DNA of 64,000 bases from Leptolyngbya sp. FACHB-261. GTDB lineage: Bacteria > Cyanobacteriota > Cyanobacteriia > FACHB-261. Shown one piece after another: positions 27,729 to 35,755 of the stretch. Position 1 is the first letter of the stretch, and each line of letters opens with the position of its first letter. The translations under genes were made by a program, and so were the position numbers. The notes under the pieces were generated by a model that had not been told where the DNA came from, did no database searches, and was given only the letters and a program-made list of their open reading frames with translations. The stretch covers positions 620,001-684,000 of the forward strand of contig NZ_JACJPL010000027.1 of the NCBI RefSeq assembly GCF_014696065.1, read 5' to 3'.

Positions 27729-27924
27729 CTTCAAGACAAAAACAACTGAATTATTCCAATTACTAAGGCTAGAGCCCTGCCCCTGGCTCGATGACTCGCT
27801 GCGATGAGCTGCAGTTATGTCCAAGCGCTGATTGTGAAACCGGTTCAATGGTTGATTATTGATCAGACTTCACACGCTTGAGGTTGACGCTGCGATCAGA
27901 ACACTCAGTTACAGAAGGGCGCAG

Positions 27925-28947
27925 ATGGAAACGCTAGTATCAGTCATTATTCCTTGCTTTAATGCGCAGAAATGGCTGGCAGAGGCAATTGATAGTTGTC
28001 TCGCGCAGTCCTACGCTAGGGTCGAGGTCATTGTCATCGATGATGGTTCGACCGATCGCTGCCCAGAGATCCTCAAGGGCTATGGCAAGCGCATTATCTG
28101 GGAGACCGGACCGCGTAGAGGTGGTAACTATGCTCGCAATCGAGGCTTCTCCCTGGCCAAGGGCGACTATATTCAGTACCTGGACGCCGACGATTTTCTG
28201 CTGCCGCAGAAAATCGAGCACCAAGTGCGCTTTCTAGAAACGACTGATGCCGATGCTGTGTATGGTGATTGGCGACACCTGCATCACCGCGGCAACAGCA
28301 AACCAGAGCTGGGACCAGTTGAAGTTTCTGGTGCTCAGGACGATATTTTAGAGTCACTTCTCCGCGATTGGTGGGCATCTTTGAATGCCTATCTCTTCCG
28401 CAGAAGCGTCATTGAACAAAGTGGCGGTTGGGATGAAGCCTTGAAAGTCGGCCAGGACCGGGACTTCTTCATCTCTTTAGCACTGAAAGGGGTGAGCTAC
28501 GCTTATCAGCCCGGCTGTTATGCCATTTATCGCAGGTACGGCAATGTCACGGTCTCTACTGCCAACAAAGTGCTTTGGCTGGAAAATCATTGGCGGGTGC
28601 TAGCGAAAGCAGAAGCACAATTGAGCCAACAGGATAAACTTTCAGTTCGCTATCGACGGGCAATGGCGGAGTCCTATTTCTCGATGGTGCGCTATTGTCA
28701 CGATCACATCACACATGAACATCGTCTGCGTTTGCTCAAGAAAGTGGTTGACCTAGACCCTGAATTTCGGGCTGAAGATAATCGCTCCCTCCCTTATAAT
28801 CTGATCGAGAGTGCACTAGGCTTTTTAGCTGCACAAAGGCTACACAGCTACCGTAGACAAATCGTTCTACAGCTTCGGCAATTACAAGAAAAACCGGCTA
28901 GGGCACCTGCAATTCGTAGATCGCAACCGGTTCATCCTTACCCCTAA
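27925..28947 (+). CDS. GT2 glycosyltransferase
   Basis: The start is the ATG at 27925 (METLVSVIIPCFNAQKWL), preceded by GAAGGG; the frame is open from 27859 but without a good start. 340 residues, GT-A fold: VIVIDDGSTDRC, YIQYLDADDFLLPQKIE, then a helical C-terminal half. The last 50 bp overlap tail-to-tail with the cyclase gene on the other strand, so the two 3' ends share sequence. It is the last gene of the polysaccharide cluster. Confidence 0.88.
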   Translation: METLVSVIIPCFNAQKWLAEAIDSCLAQSYARVEVIVIDDGSTDRCPEILKGYGKRIIWETGPRRGGNYARNRGFSLAKGDYIQYLDADDFLLPQKIEHQVRFLETTDADAVYGDWRHLHHRGNSKPELGPVEVSGAQDDILESLLRDWWASLNAYLFRRSVIEQSGGWDEALKVGQDRDFFISLALKGVSYAYQPGCYAIYRRYGNVTVSTANKVLWLENHWRVLAKAEAQLSQQDKLSVRYRRAMAESYFSMVRYCHDHITHEHRLRLLKKVVDLDPEFRAEDNRSLPYNLIESALGFLAAQRLHSYRRQIVLQLRQLQEKPARAPAIRRSQPVHPYP

Positions 28948-30415
28948 TCTTCACGCATTGGCTAACTAGCCGCAGTTGAAAGGCATCCGGATGACGCAGT
29001 GCCGCAACCACAGGTTCAGTCACAAGAATTTGACAGTGATAGTCCTTAGTCAGGCGCTCGACTCGTGAAGCCAGATTCACTGGGTCACCAATCACGGTGG
29101 ATTCAATCCGCGAAGTAAAGCCGACTGTGCCCATCACAACTTCACCACGGTGAATGCCAATACCAATATCAATTTGTGGCAAACCCTGGTGAAGCCGCTC
29201 AGCGTTGAATTGAGTCAGGGTACGACGCAGGGCCAGAGCTGCCTGCAAAACTCCATCAGTGGCTTCATCATCAAATAGAGCCATGATGGCATCGCCAATG
29301 TATTTGTCAATGAATCCATTGGCTTCGTTGATCACTTGGCCCATGCAAGCGAGATAGGCATTGAGAAATTGAAAGATTTCACTGGGGGTCAATTTCTCAG
29401 AGAGGCTGGTGTAGCCTCGAATATCTGTGAATAAAATCGAAATTTGACGTGTAACTGCGACACCAACCTGAATTTGCTCAATTCCCTCTGGCGCAATCAC
29501 GGAAAGAAATTTCTCGGGCACGAACCGCTCAAAAGATTCCAGAGTTTTTTGCAACTTGCTGAAGGAAGCCTGAAGCGCTGCTGACATTTCGTTGAAGGAT
29601 GTAGCTAGAGCGCCAATTTCATCAGCCCGTTGCAAATTGGCGCGATGGTGCAGATCGCCGCTGGCAATTTTGGCCGCGCTGCTTTGCAAATGGCGAACCG
29701 GCTCACTGAGATGTCGAGCTAGCAGATAGGCACTGAGCAAACCAAACATCAAACCAAATGCCCCGACGAGCAGTGCCTTTTGTACTGCCAGCGCCACAGC
29801 TCGATCTACCTGTCGCAGTGAGATGCCCACACGCAACGTCCCGAGCTTTCCACCAGTAGCAAGGTGAATAGCGGAGGCAACTTCGATGACCCGTTCGCCG
29901 CGTTGAGCCCGTTGGTGATTGGGTGGAAAGATAATATCGCGCAGGATAAACGTTTCGGCAGTGTGAGGTTTTTCCAAAGCCGCAAGCGCAGCCTCCGTTA
30001 CCCCAATTGGCACCAGGTTAGGAACGTACTGCTCCTGAAACTCACTGGGCGAGGCAGCAACAATTTGGTTGTCTAACTTCGCATCGGACACCAGTATGTA
30101 AACGAAGTCCGGATTGTCGCGTAGTAGCAAGTCGAGATTGACGCGAATCGCACTCCAGTTTTGCTCATTGAGATCGCCACTCGATGTCTGCGACAGCAGC
30201 AGGGCAAAGGACTGAGCCTGGGCCCGCTTTTGCTCCTGATAGAAGTCGCGCTCATTGGTCGCCCAGAGCCACACCACAGCAGAGACAATCGTGACGATGA
30301 CCAGGGTGGTGCTGGTCATAATCTGAGTGCGGATGGAGCTAAATTGCCAAGGTTTTAGGGGCCAAGGTTTTAGAAGCCAGCGTCTTAGGGGCTGGGGCTT
30401 TGCTGTCTGTTTCAT
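28898..30415 (-). CDS. membrane class III adenylyl cyclase with HAMP domain
   Basis: 505 residues. N-terminal span (about 31-52), an extracytoplasmic sensor of ~165 residues, a second span (~215-235), HAMP (ARHLSEPVRHLQSSAAKIAS), a short helix, then the cyclase domain. Catalytic features: ILFTDIRGYTSLSE and YIGDAIMALF (metal Asp residues), IDKYIGD (purine-specifying Lys), and STVIGDPVNLASRVERL (Thr specificity residue plus Asn/Arg). Lys with Thr indicates class IIIb adenylyl cyclase. Its ATG overlaps the stop of the preceding lipoprotein gene (30412-30415), so it is the translationally coupled last gene of the polyamine-type operon. Confidence 0.9.
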   Translation of the reverse strand: MKQTAKPQPLRRWLLKPWPLKPWQFSSIRTQIMTSTTLVIVTIVSAVVWLWATNERDFYQEQKRAQAQSFALLLSQTSSGDLNEQNWSAIRVNLDLLLRDNPDFVYILVSDAKLDNQIVAASPSEFQEQYVPNLVPIGVTEAALAALEKPHTAETFILRDIIFPPNHQRAQRGERVIEVASAIHLATGGKLGTLRVGISLRQVDRAVALAVQKALLVGAFGLMFGLLSAYLLARHLSEPVRHLQSSAAKIASGDLHHRANLQRADEIGALATSFNEMSAALQASFSKLQKTLESFERFVPEKFLSVIAPEGIEQIQVGVAVTRQISILFTDIRGYTSLSEKLTPSEIFQFLNAYLACMGQVINEANGFIDKYIGDAIMALFDDEATDGVLQAALALRRTLTQFNAERLHQGLPQIDIGIGIHRGEVVMGTVGFTSRIESTVIGDPVNLASRVERLTKDYHCQILVTEPVVAALRHPDAFQLRLVSQCVKIRGKDEPVAIYELQVP

Positions 30416-31473
30416 CGCCCAGGCACCTCTAGTTCTTCAACAAAAGTCATCCAGCCCTTAACCCCGTTCTGGCTAACACAGTGGTGGGGTAGAGCGAGGG
30501 TTACGGGCCCCCCCAAGCGAGCCGGGATTGGCTGCCGGTCATCGCCCCAGTGAGTCGCAAGCAGCAGGTCACAACGGTTCACCGCATCAGCGCTGAGTGT
30601 GACGGGCTGGGTGAGGTCGCGATCAACCGCTGCTTTTCCCCGAACCACCACGTGTTGACTGGCTTGCAAGCTCACGCCTGCCGCAGCTAGCAGATCGCGC
30701 AAGCGCACACCTTGGAGTTTGACCTTGCCAACCGGCCAGCCCAGGCGATACTCAACCGCTTCTTCAAGGCTGGTTTGGGGCAGTTTGGCTAAGGCACTGG
30801 CCTCAAAGCGGTACTCCTGCTGGTTCGCTTTAAGCCGCAGTTGGATAGGCTCGGTCCCGACAATAACGTGCGTGACATAGTAGGACCAGAATTTATCGCT
30901 GTAGACCTGCTCCAACTGCGGATATTGACGGTAGGGAAACACCAGAAAGACGGGGCCACCCTGGTTGCGTTGGATAAACTGGCCGTTGCGCTTAAGAGCA
31001 AGCGTAATCGGATAGCGCTGCAAATCATCCAGATTGACGGTGGAGCGAAAGGCATCGAAGGTCACAAAGGTCACCTCTTGTACGCCAGGTTTCACCCCCA
31101 CTTGCTTGAGCAGATCTGCCACACCAATGCCCTGAAAGTCCAGCACAGCGTTTAGCTCTGTGGGATTCAAGGGCGATTGAGTCAGTACGCGACTGGTCGC
31201 CAGCGATTGTAGTTGTTGCCACGTGAGCGTGACTGGCGTTTGCCTCAACGTCTGTCCTGTAACCAACAAGCGCCAGGACTGAGTTTGGGTCTGTGGGTTA
31301 TGGAGATGGGCTGCCGCCAAAGTGGCATTGCGCATCAGAGCTTCTTGCTGCCAAGTCGCTAATTGAACTTCAGTCGGCTGTTGCCTGCACCCCTGTAGAC
31401 TCCCTGCCAAGGCCAAAATGCCAGCAGCAAGCAAAGGGACTCTGAGCCTAAGACAACTTGATGCAGTTAGCAT
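30412..31473 (-). CDS. lipoprotein with two sulfite-oxidase-like domains
   Basis: The start is the ATG at 31473 (MLTASSCLRLRVPLLAAG), giving a lipoprotein signal with lipobox SLQGC; the longer frame would overlap the upstream gene. About 353 residues. Two repeats of an oxidoreductase molybdopterin-binding-like fold: first GIGVADLLKQVGVKPG with GGPVFLVFPYRQYPQ and DKFWSYYVTHV, second GVRLRDLLAAAGVSL with GGPVTLALPHHCVSQNGVKGW. A canonical molybdenum-ligating Cys is not evident, so it may not be a true molybdoenzyme. It should sit at the outer face of the membrane. Coupled to the cyclase. Confidence 0.72.
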   Translation of the reverse strand: MLTASSCLRLRVPLLAAGILALAGSLQGCRQQPTEVQLATWQQEALMRNATLAAAHLHNPQTQTQSWRLLVTGQTLRQTPVTLTWQQLQSLATSRVLTQSPLNPTELNAVLDFQGIGVADLLKQVGVKPGVQEVTFVTFDAFRSTVNLDDLQRYPITLALKRNGQFIQRNQGGPVFLVFPYRQYPQLEQVYSDKFWSYYVTHVIVGTEPIQLRLKANQQEYRFEASALAKLPQTSLEEAVEYRLGWPVGKVKLQGVRLRDLLAAAGVSLQASQHVVVRGKAAVDRDLTQPVTLSADAVNRCDLLLATHWGDDRQPIPARLGGPVTLALPHHCVSQNGVKGWMTFVEELEVPGR

Positions 31474-31522
31474 GCTTGTAGCCAACACATTATGAGAATA
31501 GCCTTGTGCTCCCTCTAGGGCT

Positions 31523-31930
31523 CTAACCACTGATCGCCAAGTAATGCCAGGAGTCACTGTTGCCATTTCCACTGATGTTTAGCGTCAGTAATTGAGCCAG
31601 TTTCTCCGCTTTATTTCGATTATTTTGTTGGTAATCGCAAACATGAATATCAACTGAGATTTTGCCCTTCTCTGGCCAGAAGTGAAGAGCAATATGCGAC
31701 TCCTCTAATAGAACGACGGCTGAAATTCCTTGAGGTTCGAAGGTGAACGCTAGTTCGCCCACTGCTTTTAGCCCAACGTTTTGAACCGAGTCTTTCAAGA
31801 AACTCAAAAACTCAGTTTCTGTCCATTCAAAGATTTCTGGTGCAGCAGTAAGGACTGCCGAGAGGTGATGGGACTTCAGACCAGAACTAGAATTAAGGCT
31901 CGGGTTAGACACCATAAACTCTGCGTCCAT
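31523..31930 (-). CDS. speD: S-adenosylmethionine decarboxylase proenzyme
   Basis: 135 residues, prokaryotic short type. The pyruvoyl-forming region is intact: LLEESHIALHFWPE, with the Ser of ESH expected to become the pyruvoyl group, the catalytic His (LHFW), and the Cys in DIHVCDY. It supplies decarboxylated AdoMet, the aminopropyl donor. Starts at 31930 or 31915 are both possible; either overlaps the 3' end of the DUF4178 gene. The partner SpeE-like enzyme is two genes upstream in the same operon. Confidence 0.9.
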   Translation of the reverse strand: MDAEFMVSNPSLNSSSGLKSHHLSAVLTAAPEIFEWTETEFLSFLKDSVQNVGLKAVGELAFTFEPQGISAVVLLEESHIALHFWPEKGKISVDIHVCDYQQNNRNKAEKLAQLLTLNISGNGNSDSWHYLAISG

Positions 31931-32498
31931 CTCCCGGCAAAATAGTGAGCAGAGTAGGGGAAATCCGTTCGCCCGCAGTCACCTCAACCTTGCCATCCCA
32001 GACTTCGACCGAGAGCACTTTATTGCCAGGCCCGTTGTAGTCGAAATACTGGCAGCGCTGGGCCTTGCGATTAAGGGTTTTGCTGGAGGGGGTCATCTTA
32101 GCAGAGCCTGCTTCTCTACAGGTATAAGCTTCACCGCCAAAAGTTAGTTTCTGTGGGGGTGTACTGCTAATTTCCAAATCCGAGATCGGTTCTAACCAGC
32201 AGACTTCAAGCTGGTCATCTTCTTCGACTGAGAGCCAACAAACTTGCTCACCCTCTTGCAGTAGATATTCCAGCCATTGATAGCCATTGCTGTCATAGGT
32301 GAGCCGTCCTTCGACGACCCAATCACCGCCCAAATATTGCACAAAGTCGCCTAGTTGCAGATCGAAAATGGAGCGTTCTACTGATGCAACTAGAGGAGCG
32401 CTGCTCGGTTTCAGAGCCTGACTTTGCCGCTGCTGAACCAGTAATACAATGCCCAGGCAAACCAGTAGACCAATACCCAGCCAGATTAATACCAGCAC
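31905..32498 (-). CDS. DUF4178 protein with N-terminal membrane anchor
   Basis: 197 residues. One span at residues 3-24 (LIWLGIGLLVCLGIVLLVQQ), then a beta-rich domain with the DUF4178 hallmarks: LQLGDFVQYLGGDWVVEGRL, YQWLEYLLQEGEQVCWLSVE and a second half ending PGNKVLSVEVWDGKVEVTAGE. Function unknown. DUF4178 genes recur beside SpeE-like, AdoMet decarboxylase and DUF350 genes in diverse bacteria, which fits this operon exactly. It starts 15 bp after the SpeE-like stop and overlaps the decarboxylase start. Confidence 0.85.
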   Translation of the reverse strand: MLVLIWLGIGLLVCLGIVLLVQQRQSQALKPSSAPLVASVERSIFDLQLGDFVQYLGGDWVVEGRLTYDSNGYQWLEYLLQEGEQVCWLSVEEDDQLEVCWLEPISDLEISSTPPQKLTFGGEAYTCREAGSAKMTPSSKTLNRKAQRCQYFDYNGPGNKVLSVEVWDGKVEVTAGERISPTLLTILPGDGRRVYGV

Positions 32499-32513
32499 AG
32501 TAGAACCCTCTCG

Positions 32514-34094
32514 TTACTGATAAGCTGCCCAACGCGGGTCATCTTGATAACGCACAATTATTGGATAAGCAAGTCGATTAACCTCAACTGGACCGATTTC
32601 GATATCGCCAGGCAGTTGGAATAACTGAGCTAGCATCGGCTGACGCAAGAAACGCGTTGCCACCGGCAGTTGCAGCGTGGTTGGCGTGATTGGGGTACGG
32701 GAGGCCAGCACAAAGCCCCAAGGTCCAAAACTGGGCACATCAATTACATAAGGCTGCACGGCCAGACCTACAGCCTGGAGCGTAGCCGCAATGCAAGCAA
32801 AGGCACGGGGCGCAAAGAACGGACTCGAAGCCTGAGTTACTAACACACCACCAGCCGCCAAGCGAGGCAGCAGACGTTGATAAAAGCCCTCGGCATAAAG
32901 TTTGGCAATTGTCTCCCGGTCTGGATCCGGGAAATCGGCAATGATCACGTCGAAGCGTTCATCTAGAGCGGGAGCCGCTACAAAGGCATCCGCCTGTTGA
33001 ACCTCCACCCGAGGGTCTACTAGGGCACCAGCATTGACCCGGGTTAGAAAGGGATGGCGACGGGCCAAGTTCACGACCGCCTGGTCGAGGTCAATCAGCA
33101 GCACCCGTTCGACCTCCGGCCACTTCAGCACCTCGCGTAGCGCCAAGCCGTCCCCCGCCCCCAGTAGCAAGACCCGCCGTCGGGTTGAACTGGCACTCAT
33201 GGCTGGATGCACTAATGCCTCGTGATAGCGGTACTCATCCAGAGTTGAAAACTGTAAGTCGCCATCCAGAAACAACCGTACATCCGCACCCTGCCGAGTT
33301 AGAACAATGCGCTGATAGGGTGACTGAATGCGGGCAATAATCGGCGCGTTGTATTGGGTATTTTCCAGACGGTCGCCCAACGAAGTTGCCACCGGTGCAA
33401 AGGCACACAAGCCCAAGCCCAGCACCAGACCCCAGTAGCTCCAAGCGCGAACTTTGGGCTCAGACTGAGCAAAAGCTCGTCCTAAGGCAAAGACCATGAA
33501 GGCAGGCAAGGCCCCAATTACTGCGGCTGAAGGAAACAAGCCCAGAACCGGTAATAGCAACACCGGAAAGGCCAAAGACCCCAACAGTGCCCCCAGGTAA
33601 TCGAGCGCTAGTACCCCGGATAGAGCATCGCGCACGCCCTCATCCTGCTCCAGTAGCCGGGTCAGGAGAGGCACCTCCAAGCCAGCCAGGGTACCCAGCA
33701 GTCCAGTCACCAACACCAAACCCAGCCACAGGGGACCACTGACCACAAACAAGGCGAACAGGCCCAAGGGCAAGAAGACAATGAGTGGGGCGATCAGCAG
33801 CTCAATTTGCACAAAGGCCAATAACAACTGCTGCTGTTGTTGGGCTGGTTCGCCTTGGTCACCAATAAAGCGGCTGAAGTAAGCGCCAATCCCCATCGCC
33901 GCTAAAAAGCCTCCCACCGCTACCCCATAAGCGAGGGCCTGATTGCCGACAAGATAGCTGGCTAGCGTCCCTAGCAGTAACTCAGCAGCCAAAGCGCAAC
34001 CGGAACAGATCGCGGTGGCCGTCAGCAATAGCAGGCGTTGACTGCGGCTCAAGGGTTGGAATGAACTGACCTCAGTCAGTAGGTCTAGGGTCAT
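32514..34094 (-). CDS. membrane-fused SpeE-like aminopropyltransferase
   Basis: 526 residues. The N-terminal ~220 residues form about seven spans (ATAICSGCALAAELLLGTLA onward). The C-terminal domain is a spermidine-synthase-like Rossmann enzyme: LLLGAGDGLALREVL (AdoMet site), LLIDLDQAVVNLARR, and VIIADFPDPDRETIAKLYAE, a variant of the DSxDP catalytic loop that lacks the usual following Gly-Pro. YNAPIIARIQSPYQRIVLTR and LDGDLQFSTLDEYRYHEAL are typical. Substrate could be a polyamine or a peptide amine at the membrane. The ATG overlaps the stop of the small gene upstream (TAATG). Confidence 0.88.
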   Translation of the reverse strand: MTLDLLTEVSSFQPLSRSQRLLLLTATAICSGCALAAELLLGTLASYLVGNQALAYGVAVGGFLAAMGIGAYFSRFIGDQGEPAQQQQQLLLAFVQIELLIAPLIVFLPLGLFALFVVSGPLWLGLVLVTGLLGTLAGLEVPLLTRLLEQDEGVRDALSGVLALDYLGALLGSLAFPVLLLPVLGLFPSAAVIGALPAFMVFALGRAFAQSEPKVRAWSYWGLVLGLGLCAFAPVATSLGDRLENTQYNAPIIARIQSPYQRIVLTRQGADVRLFLDGDLQFSTLDEYRYHEALVHPAMSASSTRRRVLLLGAGDGLALREVLKWPEVERVLLIDLDQAVVNLARRHPFLTRVNAGALVDPRVEVQQADAFVAAPALDERFDVIIADFPDPDRETIAKLYAEGFYQRLLPRLAAGGVLVTQASSPFFAPRAFACIAATLQAVGLAVQPYVIDVPSFGPWGFVLASRTPITPTTLQLPVATRFLRQPMLAQLFQLPGDIEIGPVEVNRLAYPIIVRYQDDPRWAAYQ

Positions 34095-34324
34095 TATTTG
34101 CCAGCCCCCGGTCCACCGCCACGAAAACTGCTGTAAGCCGTACGGGAGGGCAAGGGTTGCCAGGTTTGGTTGCGATAGTACCCGGATAACTCAGTGCCGT
34201 GGCGTGACCAATAGAGCGGTTGTTGTTCCTGGCGCAGATTAAGGGCTGAGGGTTGAAAGTAGCCAGCCAGGATAGTGAGCAGCGCAAGGATTAGGGCAGC
34301 AATTGCCAGAAATTGAGTGAGCAT
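34094..34324 (-). CDS. small membrane protein of the polyamine-type operon
   Basis: 76 residues: one N-terminal span (FLAIAALILALLTILAGYF), then a polar tail rich in Gln, Tyr, Trp and Arg ending SSFRGGGPGAGK. The stop overlaps the SpeE-like start, so the two are translationally coupled. I know no named family. The Gly-rich C-terminus with a terminal lysine is notable as a possible modification target of the neighbouring aminopropyltransferase, but that is speculation. Confidence 0.7.
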   Translation of the reverse strand: MLTQFLAIAALILALLTILAGYFQPSALNLRQEQQPLYWSRHGTELSGYYRNQTWQPLPSRTAYSSFRGGGPGAGK

Positions 34325-34405
34325 CGCTCGATCTTTCTCGCAGTAGGATCTTTCTCGAAGCAGGTAGCCGCGTGAACAGCCGGGTTAGTTGTAGAGTCTT
34401 CCCGC

Positions 34406-35398
34406 TTAGGTCCAGCGAACCTGACTAACCTCAACATTTCTCAGCGTGCGAGCCCCCTCACTCACCCGCAAGCAGGTGGAGTCCACAGAGGCATCGGGTG
34501 TGACCTCGACCGCAAACCGATAGGAACTGCGTGGTTCTAGCATCAGCAAGGTTTCAAACTGAGCCGTTGCCTTCTCGACGGTGCCTTTGTCATTGCGGTG
34601 AAAGCGCAACCGCACCCAGTCAGTTTGCTGATGCACCGGATCGCCATTACGATTGCTTACGACCAGCGCCACTTGCAATCGTTGAGGAGCCGTGTCATCA
34701 GCAGCAATTGCAACTACAACCTTCACCAAATTGTTAGGGCCACCTACCACTGCCCGTTCACCAATGTCGCTGAAAGGCATCGTCTTGGCAATAACGCCCT
34801 TACCTGAACCGAGGACACTCAGGTAAGCTAATGCCGCTAGACTGCCAGAGCCCAACAATCCAGCCCATAAGTAACGGCCATCAACAACGCCGTTGCGCAC
34901 TGTGATCTCAAACGGCACGGGCTGGTCGAGTTCCTGTCCTGCCGTATCGCCATATTCAAGGACATCAACCACAATGCTGACAGTTTCTGATTGAGCGCTG
35001 CGTACATCCAGCCCGCCCCATAGGTCGTCTTCTTGCCAGCTACCCGACTCGCCCTCCTCCTGCCAGGTGCCTGACTCACTCCAAGCTTGCTTGAGGCCAC
35101 TAGCCAGAACCTTGCCCTGAGAATCTTGTAACTGAATTTCGTAAGTTACCCACTGGTTGCTCGGCAAAACGGCCTTTACCTCAATGCGCAACGCTCCCAG
35201 AGTTGCCCTTTGAAGGACCAGAGGTTGCAGCCTAGCGGGTTCGCCCTCGCTCACCTGCACCTGCGTTGACACCAGGGTTTTGGCAAAGGAACCAGAAATT
35301 AGCAAGGCTAGAAGCACCAGCACAGTCACCACCAGCGCAATATGGGGCCACAGGTCAATAAAGCGCCCGGTGCGCTGAGTTTGGACGTCGATGCTCAT
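34406..35398 (-). CDS. two-span membrane protein heading the polyamine-type operon
   Basis: 330 residues. First span ~residues 18-40 (IALVVTVLVLLALLISG), an extracytoplasmic beta-rich domain with an acidic repeat-like stretch (WSESGTWQEEGESGSWQEDD), a second span ~178-197, then a cytoplasmic beta-rich domain of ~130 residues (KVVVAIAADDTAPQRLQVAL). I do not recognise the family. It is the first minus-strand gene, 144 bp from the divergent DUF350 gene, suggesting a shared control region. Confidence 0.72.
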   Translation of the reverse strand: MSIDVQTQRTGRFIDLWPHIALVVTVLVLLALLISGSFAKTLVSTQVQVSEGEPARLQPLVLQRATLGALRIEVKAVLPSNQWVTYEIQLQDSQGKVLASGLKQAWSESGTWQEEGESGSWQEDDLWGGLDVRSAQSETVSIVVDVLEYGDTAGQELDQPVPFEITVRNGVVDGRYLWAGLLGSGSLAALAYLSVLGSGKGVIAKTMPFSDIGERAVVGGPNNLVKVVVAIAADDTAPQRLQVALVVSNRNGDPVHQQTDWVRLRFHRNDKGTVEKATAQFETLLMLEPRSSYRFAVEVTPDASVDSTCLRVSEGARTLRNVEVSQVRWT

Positions 35399-35542
35399 GG
35401 CCCTTCTCGCAGCTAGCGACTCAGATTCCTATCAATCTAGCCAGCCTATATTAGCTGTTTAGCCTCTTGTTTTCAGACTTGACAAAGTGCCTGGTTAACG
35501 CCTAATCATGGCTTGACTACAGAAGAATTGGAAGCCAACACC

Positions 35543-35755
35543 ATGATTTTGCCAACGTTACAAAAAGTTTCTGAGACGATCGGCTGGACCGTGATTGGCA
35601 TTCTGTTGCTGTATGGTGGGGTGCGCCTGTTTGACCTCATTGACCCCATCGATTACCGTGAAGAGATCCGCAAAGGTAATCTTGCCGCTGGCATCATCAT
35701 GGCTGCCCTGATCACAGGTTTAGCCGCCATTGTAATTGCGGTAATTTTGAGTTGA
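35543..35755 (+). CDS. DUF350 small membrane protein
   Basis: I choose the ATG at 35543 (MILPTLQKVSETIGW), with GGAAG eight bases upstream; a TTG at 35513 is possible. 70 residues: span, a short charged loop (FDLIDPIDYREEIRKGNLAA) and a second span. This is one DUF350 unit, with the conserved Asp and the Glu-rich turn before GN. DUF350 proteins are repeatedly found with SpeE-like/DUF4178 genes, so it belongs functionally to the divergent operon. Confidence 0.82.
   Translation: MILPTLQKVSETIGWTVIGILLLYGGVRLFDLIDPIDYREEIRKGNLAAGIIMAALITGLAAIVIAVILS

Follow-up and report, generated by a model that had tools for sequence, protein, structure and literature searches.

A PruR-like lipoprotein and a transmembrane adenylyl cyclase are encoded as a conserved gene pair in cyanobacteria and Myxococcota

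The periplasmic protein PruR of Agrobacterium first binds a reduced pterin and, once loaded, contacts DcpA through the periplasmic part of the latter; the gene of this target regulator lies next to that of PruR (PMC13259868). PruR is a single soluble domain of ~170 aa with the sulfite oxidase (SUOX) fold, and the PruR-DcpA and PruR-DTB pairs of Proteobacteria are two-gene units, in which this secreted protein, devoid of a molybdenum-ligating cysteine, is encoded directly upstream of a transmembrane signaling enzyme with a GGDEF/EAL or histidine kinase output. Proteobacterial PruR-DcpA loci on plasmids (L152:3296-3667, L154:3285-3641 and L155:2690-3742) adjoin pterin-related genes, annotated as 6-carboxytetrahydropterin synthase and folE2. 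Here we describe a cyanobacterial locus in which a PruR-like lipoprotein is encoded together with a transmembrane adenylyl cyclase. This pair appears to be the real finding of the locus and to be undescribed in the literature searched: no description of it was found in the open literature, a scope outside which most subscription journals and preprints lie, and the passages available from reviews on pterins and cAMP do not mention it.

The locus lies in a 64,000-nucleotide stretch of the genome of Leptolyngbya sp. FACHB-261 (hereafter, the window). Calling ORFs in the window recovered seven minus-strand ORFs and a divergent DUF350 ORF at the positions reported in a preliminary description made from the sequence, together with the overlaps reported there, i.e., between the genes of SpeE and a 76-aa protein at 34094, AdoMet decarboxylase (AdoMetDC) and DUF4178 at 31905-31930, and the cyclase and the lipoprotein at 30412-30415. 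The gene identities proposed there were likewise recovered, using Pfam and NCBIfam matches (Spermine_synth, AdoMet_dc, DUF4178, DUF350, Oxidored_molyb in two stretches, HAMP and Guanylate_cyc) and a hydropathy scan for the SpeE spans (Table 1). The 3' end of the cyclase gene converges with a plus-strand glycosyltransferase-like ORF (27859-28947), the two overlapping by 50 bp (28898-28947). Promoter and terminator scans performed no better than on shuffled sequences. The best reading of the locus is that of two adjacent, unrelated modules: module A, devoted to aminopropyl transfer, and module B, comprising the lipoprotein and the adenylyl cyclase.

Table 1. Features of the locus, in window coordinates
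Feature	Position	Strand	Evidence
Module B, transmembrane class IIIb adenylyl cyclase, 505 aa	28898..30415	-	ORF, Pfam, invariant catalytic residues, model
Cyclase catalytic domain	28931..29452	-	PF00211 4.9e-21
Cyclase periplasmic sensor region (putative)	29801..30253	-	AF2 secondary structure
Module B, two-domain PruR-like lipoprotein	30412..31488	-	ORF opens 31572, likely start 31473-31488
Lipoprotein domain 2, diverged second fold copy	30415..30837	-	hhalign: PruR 95.4%, E 1.8e-8; domain 1, E 7e-9
Lipoprotein domain 1, PruR-type	30838..31287	-	hhalign to PruR 99.4%, E 5e-22
Module A, AdoMet decarboxylase (SpeD)	31523..31930	-	PF02675 3.1e-18
Module A, DUF4178 protein, N-terminal membrane span	31905..32498	-	PF13785 2.3e-37, hydropathy
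Module A, 7-TM SpeE-like aminopropyltransferase	32514..34094	-	NF002956 547 bits (cut-off 472), hydropathy spans
Module A, membrane-anchored protein of 76 aa, no family	34094..34324	-	beside SpeE at most loci of the module
Module A, 330-aa membrane protein, no family	34406..35398	-	conserved at module A head
Module A, divergent DUF350 membrane protein	35513..35755	+	PF03994 6.4e-12

In module A we recognise the known membrane SpeE / AdoMetDC / DUF350 / DUF4178 cluster in a cyanobacterial form. Its SpeE-like protein scores above the cut-off of the polyamine aminopropyltransferase family NF002956 and carries seven N-terminal spans. AdoMetDC was reportedly linked to membrane SpeE by Li et al. in 2019, and such fusions are said not to make spermidine; module A probably aminopropylates an acceptor other than putrescine. 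SpeE and SpeD are, respectively, the sole Spermine_synth protein and the sole AdoMet decarboxylase found in the window genome, and they may therefore also serve the ordinary synthesis of spermidine. The association of 7-TM SpeE with DUF350 and DUF4178 has already been published (PMC11237479), in a paper that lists Li et al. as its ref 89, and the preliminary description was thus right to treat the co-occurrence of these genes with AdoMetDC as known. Module A shares with the published cluster the 7-TM SpeE fusion, DUF4178, DUF350 and AdoMetDC, all carried at one locus, yet no PspA or CesT/Tir-type gene was recognised beside it, and it has two extra conserved membrane proteins, of 330 and 76 aa. 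Neither of these matches a family, no homologue of either scores above a curated cut-off, and both accompany SpeE-7TM across cyanobacteria. Homologous loci elsewhere comprise the 330-aa protein, the 76-aa protein, SpeE and DUF4178, with speD or a divergent DUF350 in some, the latter occupying the same divergent position at three loci (L134, L135 and L136). Unlike the window copy, one of the homologues of the 76-aa protein, at L134:8860-9099, shows a lipobox-like cysteine, and in one genome (G067, L074:7416-12445) the SpeE-7TM and 330-aa frames are broken, with ~1.3 kb of extra sequence between the SpeE parts.

According to the preliminary description, the two modules form a single system: module A would aminopropylate a target, either a peptide or a membrane component, and the product would be sensed by the lipoprotein and cyclase. 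The layout of the window is in line with such a system: the seven genes are packed on the same strand, and the lipoprotein start lies 35-49 nt past the speD stop, making co-transcription of the lipoprotein with module A possible in this strain. In order to follow the distribution of the modules, we used the lipoprotein and SpeE-7TM as queries against 293 genomes of the phylum (lipoprotein threshold, E 1e-5) and against 59 relatives (lipoprotein threshold, E 1e-30); the searched genomes include none from the window organism's genus, family or order. In the first set, a full-length lipoprotein was present in 15 genomes, and a close full-length or nearly full-length SpeE-7TM in nine genomes of the same class, the window's included; the window's genome alone had both. 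Among the 59 relatives, nine had SpeE-7TM and two had the lipoprotein, both being present only in the window's genome. When the two sets are counted once, module A occurs in 14 other genomes and module B in 15 others, and the overlap is empty. A GTDB-wide scan yielded 40 loci with the lipoprotein, plus one with a remnant of it, some of these genomes being shared with the phylum set, and in none of the 40 further loci was module A found near the lipoprotein (flanking DNA of up to 10 kb). The juxtaposition of A and B is therefore particular to the window genome, as far as sampled. The preliminary description had itself named adjacency confined to this strain as an outcome that would speak against its model; read as bearing on the coupling to the polyamine genes, this is what the neighborhood search returned, no second genome having both modules. 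Moreover, other genes precede the lipoprotein elsewhere, often divergently, and the lipoprotein fold points to pterin binding. On the basis of distribution, we reject the idea that module B is coupled to the SpeE operon, and regard the integrated system as very improbable. What stands of the earlier proposal is the notion of sensing outside the cell and reporting through cAMP, which the look of the lipoprotein-cyclase pair fits, while an aminopropylated product as the sensed molecule does not agree with the fold.

The pairing of the lipoprotein with the cyclase, by contrast, extends well beyond the window genome. Cyclase orthologues (E below 1e-110, 56-67% identity) were detected in exactly those 15 of the 293 genomes that carry a full-length lipoprotein. 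Across the GTDB loci, which come from cyanobacteria and Myxococcota, the cyclase comes after the lipoprotein in 38 of 40, in the same orientation and no more than 425 bp downstream, most commonly with the 4-nt overlap seen in the window. One of the remaining two has a 1.3 kb gap, and in the other, from Kastovskya, both genes are present and unlinked (G063, contigs 35 and 37). No cyclase was found in the two genomes that hold only a lipoprotein remnant (G065 and L130). Four pair loci, each with the genes together, derive from Myxococcota assemblies (L121, L122, L123 and L126), which suggests that the system is old or has moved from one phylum to another. Upstream of the lipoprotein, most Nostocales loci have a divergently oriented gene encoding ~995 aa, several non-Nostocales loci have a same-strand thioredoxin-like gene directly adjacent (e.g., L035:8413-8991 and L097:9333-9944), and other loci have other genes; given this variability, the pair usually stands outside any larger conserved operon. 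The partnership of lipoprotein and cyclase is well supported by genomics. It could be argued that the two are linked by descent only, sharing an operon and acting separately, yet the pair is kept across two phyla and even where the genes are unlinked (G063), and no cyclase was found where the lipoprotein has decayed (G065 and L130), making this explanation extremely unlikely.

The lipoprotein ORF opens with a GTG at 31572, inside speD. We rejected this codon as the start, as it lies too far upstream, the signal peptide and lipobox being located later and placing the start at ~31473-31488. The lipobox cysteine (Cys62, at 31387-31389) is kept in 37 of 37 sequences. As the preliminary description had proposed, the mature part holds two sulfite-oxidase-like domains, recovered as two Pfam stretches, by profile and in the structural model. 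Both domains were aligned by hhalign to a PruR comparison profile built from eight PruR proteins of plasmid records (Table 1). When the profile of the 37 sequences was compared with the PDB, PruR ranked first (7kos, E 1.6e-18; then 7rkb, 7kom and 7kp2), whereas no sulfite oxidase scored better than E 5.6e-4. The AF2 model (mean pLDDT 85, and >90 over most of both domains) likewise had PruR as its top Foldseek matches, with an E of 7e-10 and a target TM of 0.78-0.85. Judged from its sequence and model, the lipoprotein is a lipid-anchored tandem of two PruR-type SUOX-fold domains without a molybdenum ligand.

The Oxidored_molyb match and the fold likeness to sulfite dehydrogenases could also be taken to indicate a molybdenum or tungsten oxidoreductase, the catalysis of which is reported by the cyclase. 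However, domain 1 has no conserved cysteine among the 37 sequences, i.e., no molybdenum-ligating cysteine, as opposed to the ECIGN cysteine of the genuine enzyme of this genome, and the profile match to sulfite oxidases is far weaker than that to PruR. We hence rejected the lipoprotein as a molybdenum enzyme, and consider such catalysis scarcely credible. While sharing the SUOX fold with the molybdoenzymes sulfite oxidase, SorA and YedY, the lipoprotein differs from them in lacking both the cysteine ligand and the Mo-co_dimer domain, and in having two copies of the fold. The genuine sulfite-oxidase-type molybdoenzyme of the window genome is encoded separately (L037:10195-13304, G000:C25); it shows a weak Mo-co_dimer match and adjoins a response regulator and a 4HB_MCP-HAMP histidine kinase.

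PruR contacts its pterin via N/D102, Y/F104 and W160 (PMC13259868). Counting along the Agrobacterium PruR sequence, these positions fall on D/N173, Y/F175 and W229 of domain 1, and all three are kept in 37/37 sequences. A D-x-Y together with a Trp is also found in true Moco enzymes of the SUOX fold, and these residues thus mark a pterin-binding type of fold or pocket and no specific ligand. In domain 2 the invariant residues are K313, C334, W342, C365 and W374, such that the invariant cysteines of the whole protein are the lipid-anchor Cys62 and the domain 2 pair, C334 and C365.

The cyclase is arranged as a first membrane span, a periplasmic alpha/beta domain (~residues 55-205), a second span, a HAMP domain (231-283) and the cyclase domain (322-495), the two spans being detected by hydropathy. 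In class III cyclases, D331 and D375 correspond to the metal-binding residues, K371 and T440 to the substrate pair (class IIIb, ATP), and N447 and R451 to the transition-state residues. All six are invariant in 35 homologues, K371 and T440 bearing out the earlier assignment to class IIIb, and the sequence thus predicts an active, homodimeric adenylyl cyclase. The catalytic domain of the model matches Cya2, CyaC and other cyclases. Compared with Spirulina CyaC and Synechocystis Cya2, with which it shares the catalytic fold and residues, the module B cyclase is distinct in being a HAMP receptor with two TM spans and a lipoprotein partner of its own. In the model, the element order of its periplasmic region resembles that of single-Cache/PDC sensors, a label that we infer from this order alone. 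Two other assignments were rejected. A DcpA-type sensor had no profile similarity, the hhalign comparison with the DcpA-type domains of seven DcpA/DTB proteins from plasmid records giving a probability of 0.2% and an E of 0.3, and W87 does not form part of a WX7E motif, as the residue following W-x7 is D, N, H or other, with no conserved acid.

Taken together, these results lead us to read module B, with a probability of roughly 0.6, as a two-gene extracytoplasmic receptor, in which a PruR-like, probably pterin-liganded lipoprotein gates a transmembrane adenylyl cyclase. The lipid-anchored periplasmic lipoprotein would bind a pterin, either free or glycosylated, chiefly through domain 1; the pterin-bound form would act upon the periplasmic alpha/beta domain of the partner cyclase; and the signal would run through the second span and HAMP to the class IIIb cyclase dimer, changing cAMP. 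Contact between the two proteins and the direction of the signal are suggested by analogy with PruR-DcpA and PruR-DTB, with which module B shares the two-gene organization and a homologous pterin-binding-type domain with its contact residues kept. Module B differs from these systems in several respects: its lipoprotein fuses two domains on a lipid anchor, its output is a class IIIb adenylyl cyclase (HAMP and Guanylate_cyc), it occurs in cyanobacteria and Myxococcota rather than Proteobacteria, and the periplasmic domain of its receptor is not DcpA-type, so that contact with the lipoprotein would have to differ from that between PruR and DcpA.

The nature of the ligand bears on a further reading, namely that the lipoprotein is a cyclase co-receptor for something other than a pterin, e.g., a carbohydrate or oxyanion, or a redox cue acting via C334 and C365. 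The two invariant cysteines and K313 of domain 2, the thioredoxin-like gene upstream in several non-Nostocales loci and the departure of the cyclase receptor domain from DcpA would all suit such a role. Nevertheless, the full conservation of the three PruR contact positions in domain 1, and the standing of PruR as nearest relative by both profile and fold, lead us to consider it rather unlikely. Returning to the pterin-liganded receptor, we infer, with less support, that the ligand is a pterin and the cue its redox state or abundance. Cyanopterin is reported to be a tetrahydro form that Synechocystis produces in amounts comparable to chlorophyll a, and cyanopterin and cAMP have each been linked to UV-A phototaxis in that organism (PMC3546692). 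This abundance and the shared link to phototaxis make pterin glycosides plausible ligands, though neither is evidence for this pair itself. Counting against a pterin sensor, the pair is found in ~5% of the sampled cyanobacteria although pterins are common.

More tentatively, and at somewhat less than even odds, module B may represent a third PruR-type branch, lying outside Proteobacteria and placing an adenylyl cyclase under a lipid-anchored tandem pterin receptor, such that extracellular or periplasmic reduced pterins, in cyanobacteria possibly pterin glycosides, set cAMP levels. Cyanobacteria produce very large amounts of pterin glycosides, and cAMP controls their motility. A conserved pair joining a pterin-binding-type receptor to an adenylyl cyclase makes the purpose of these pterins testable with two genes. 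If the proposal is true, cAMP would join c-di-GMP and histidine kinases among the outputs of periplasmic PruR-type signaling, which would then be known from two phyla besides Proteobacteria.
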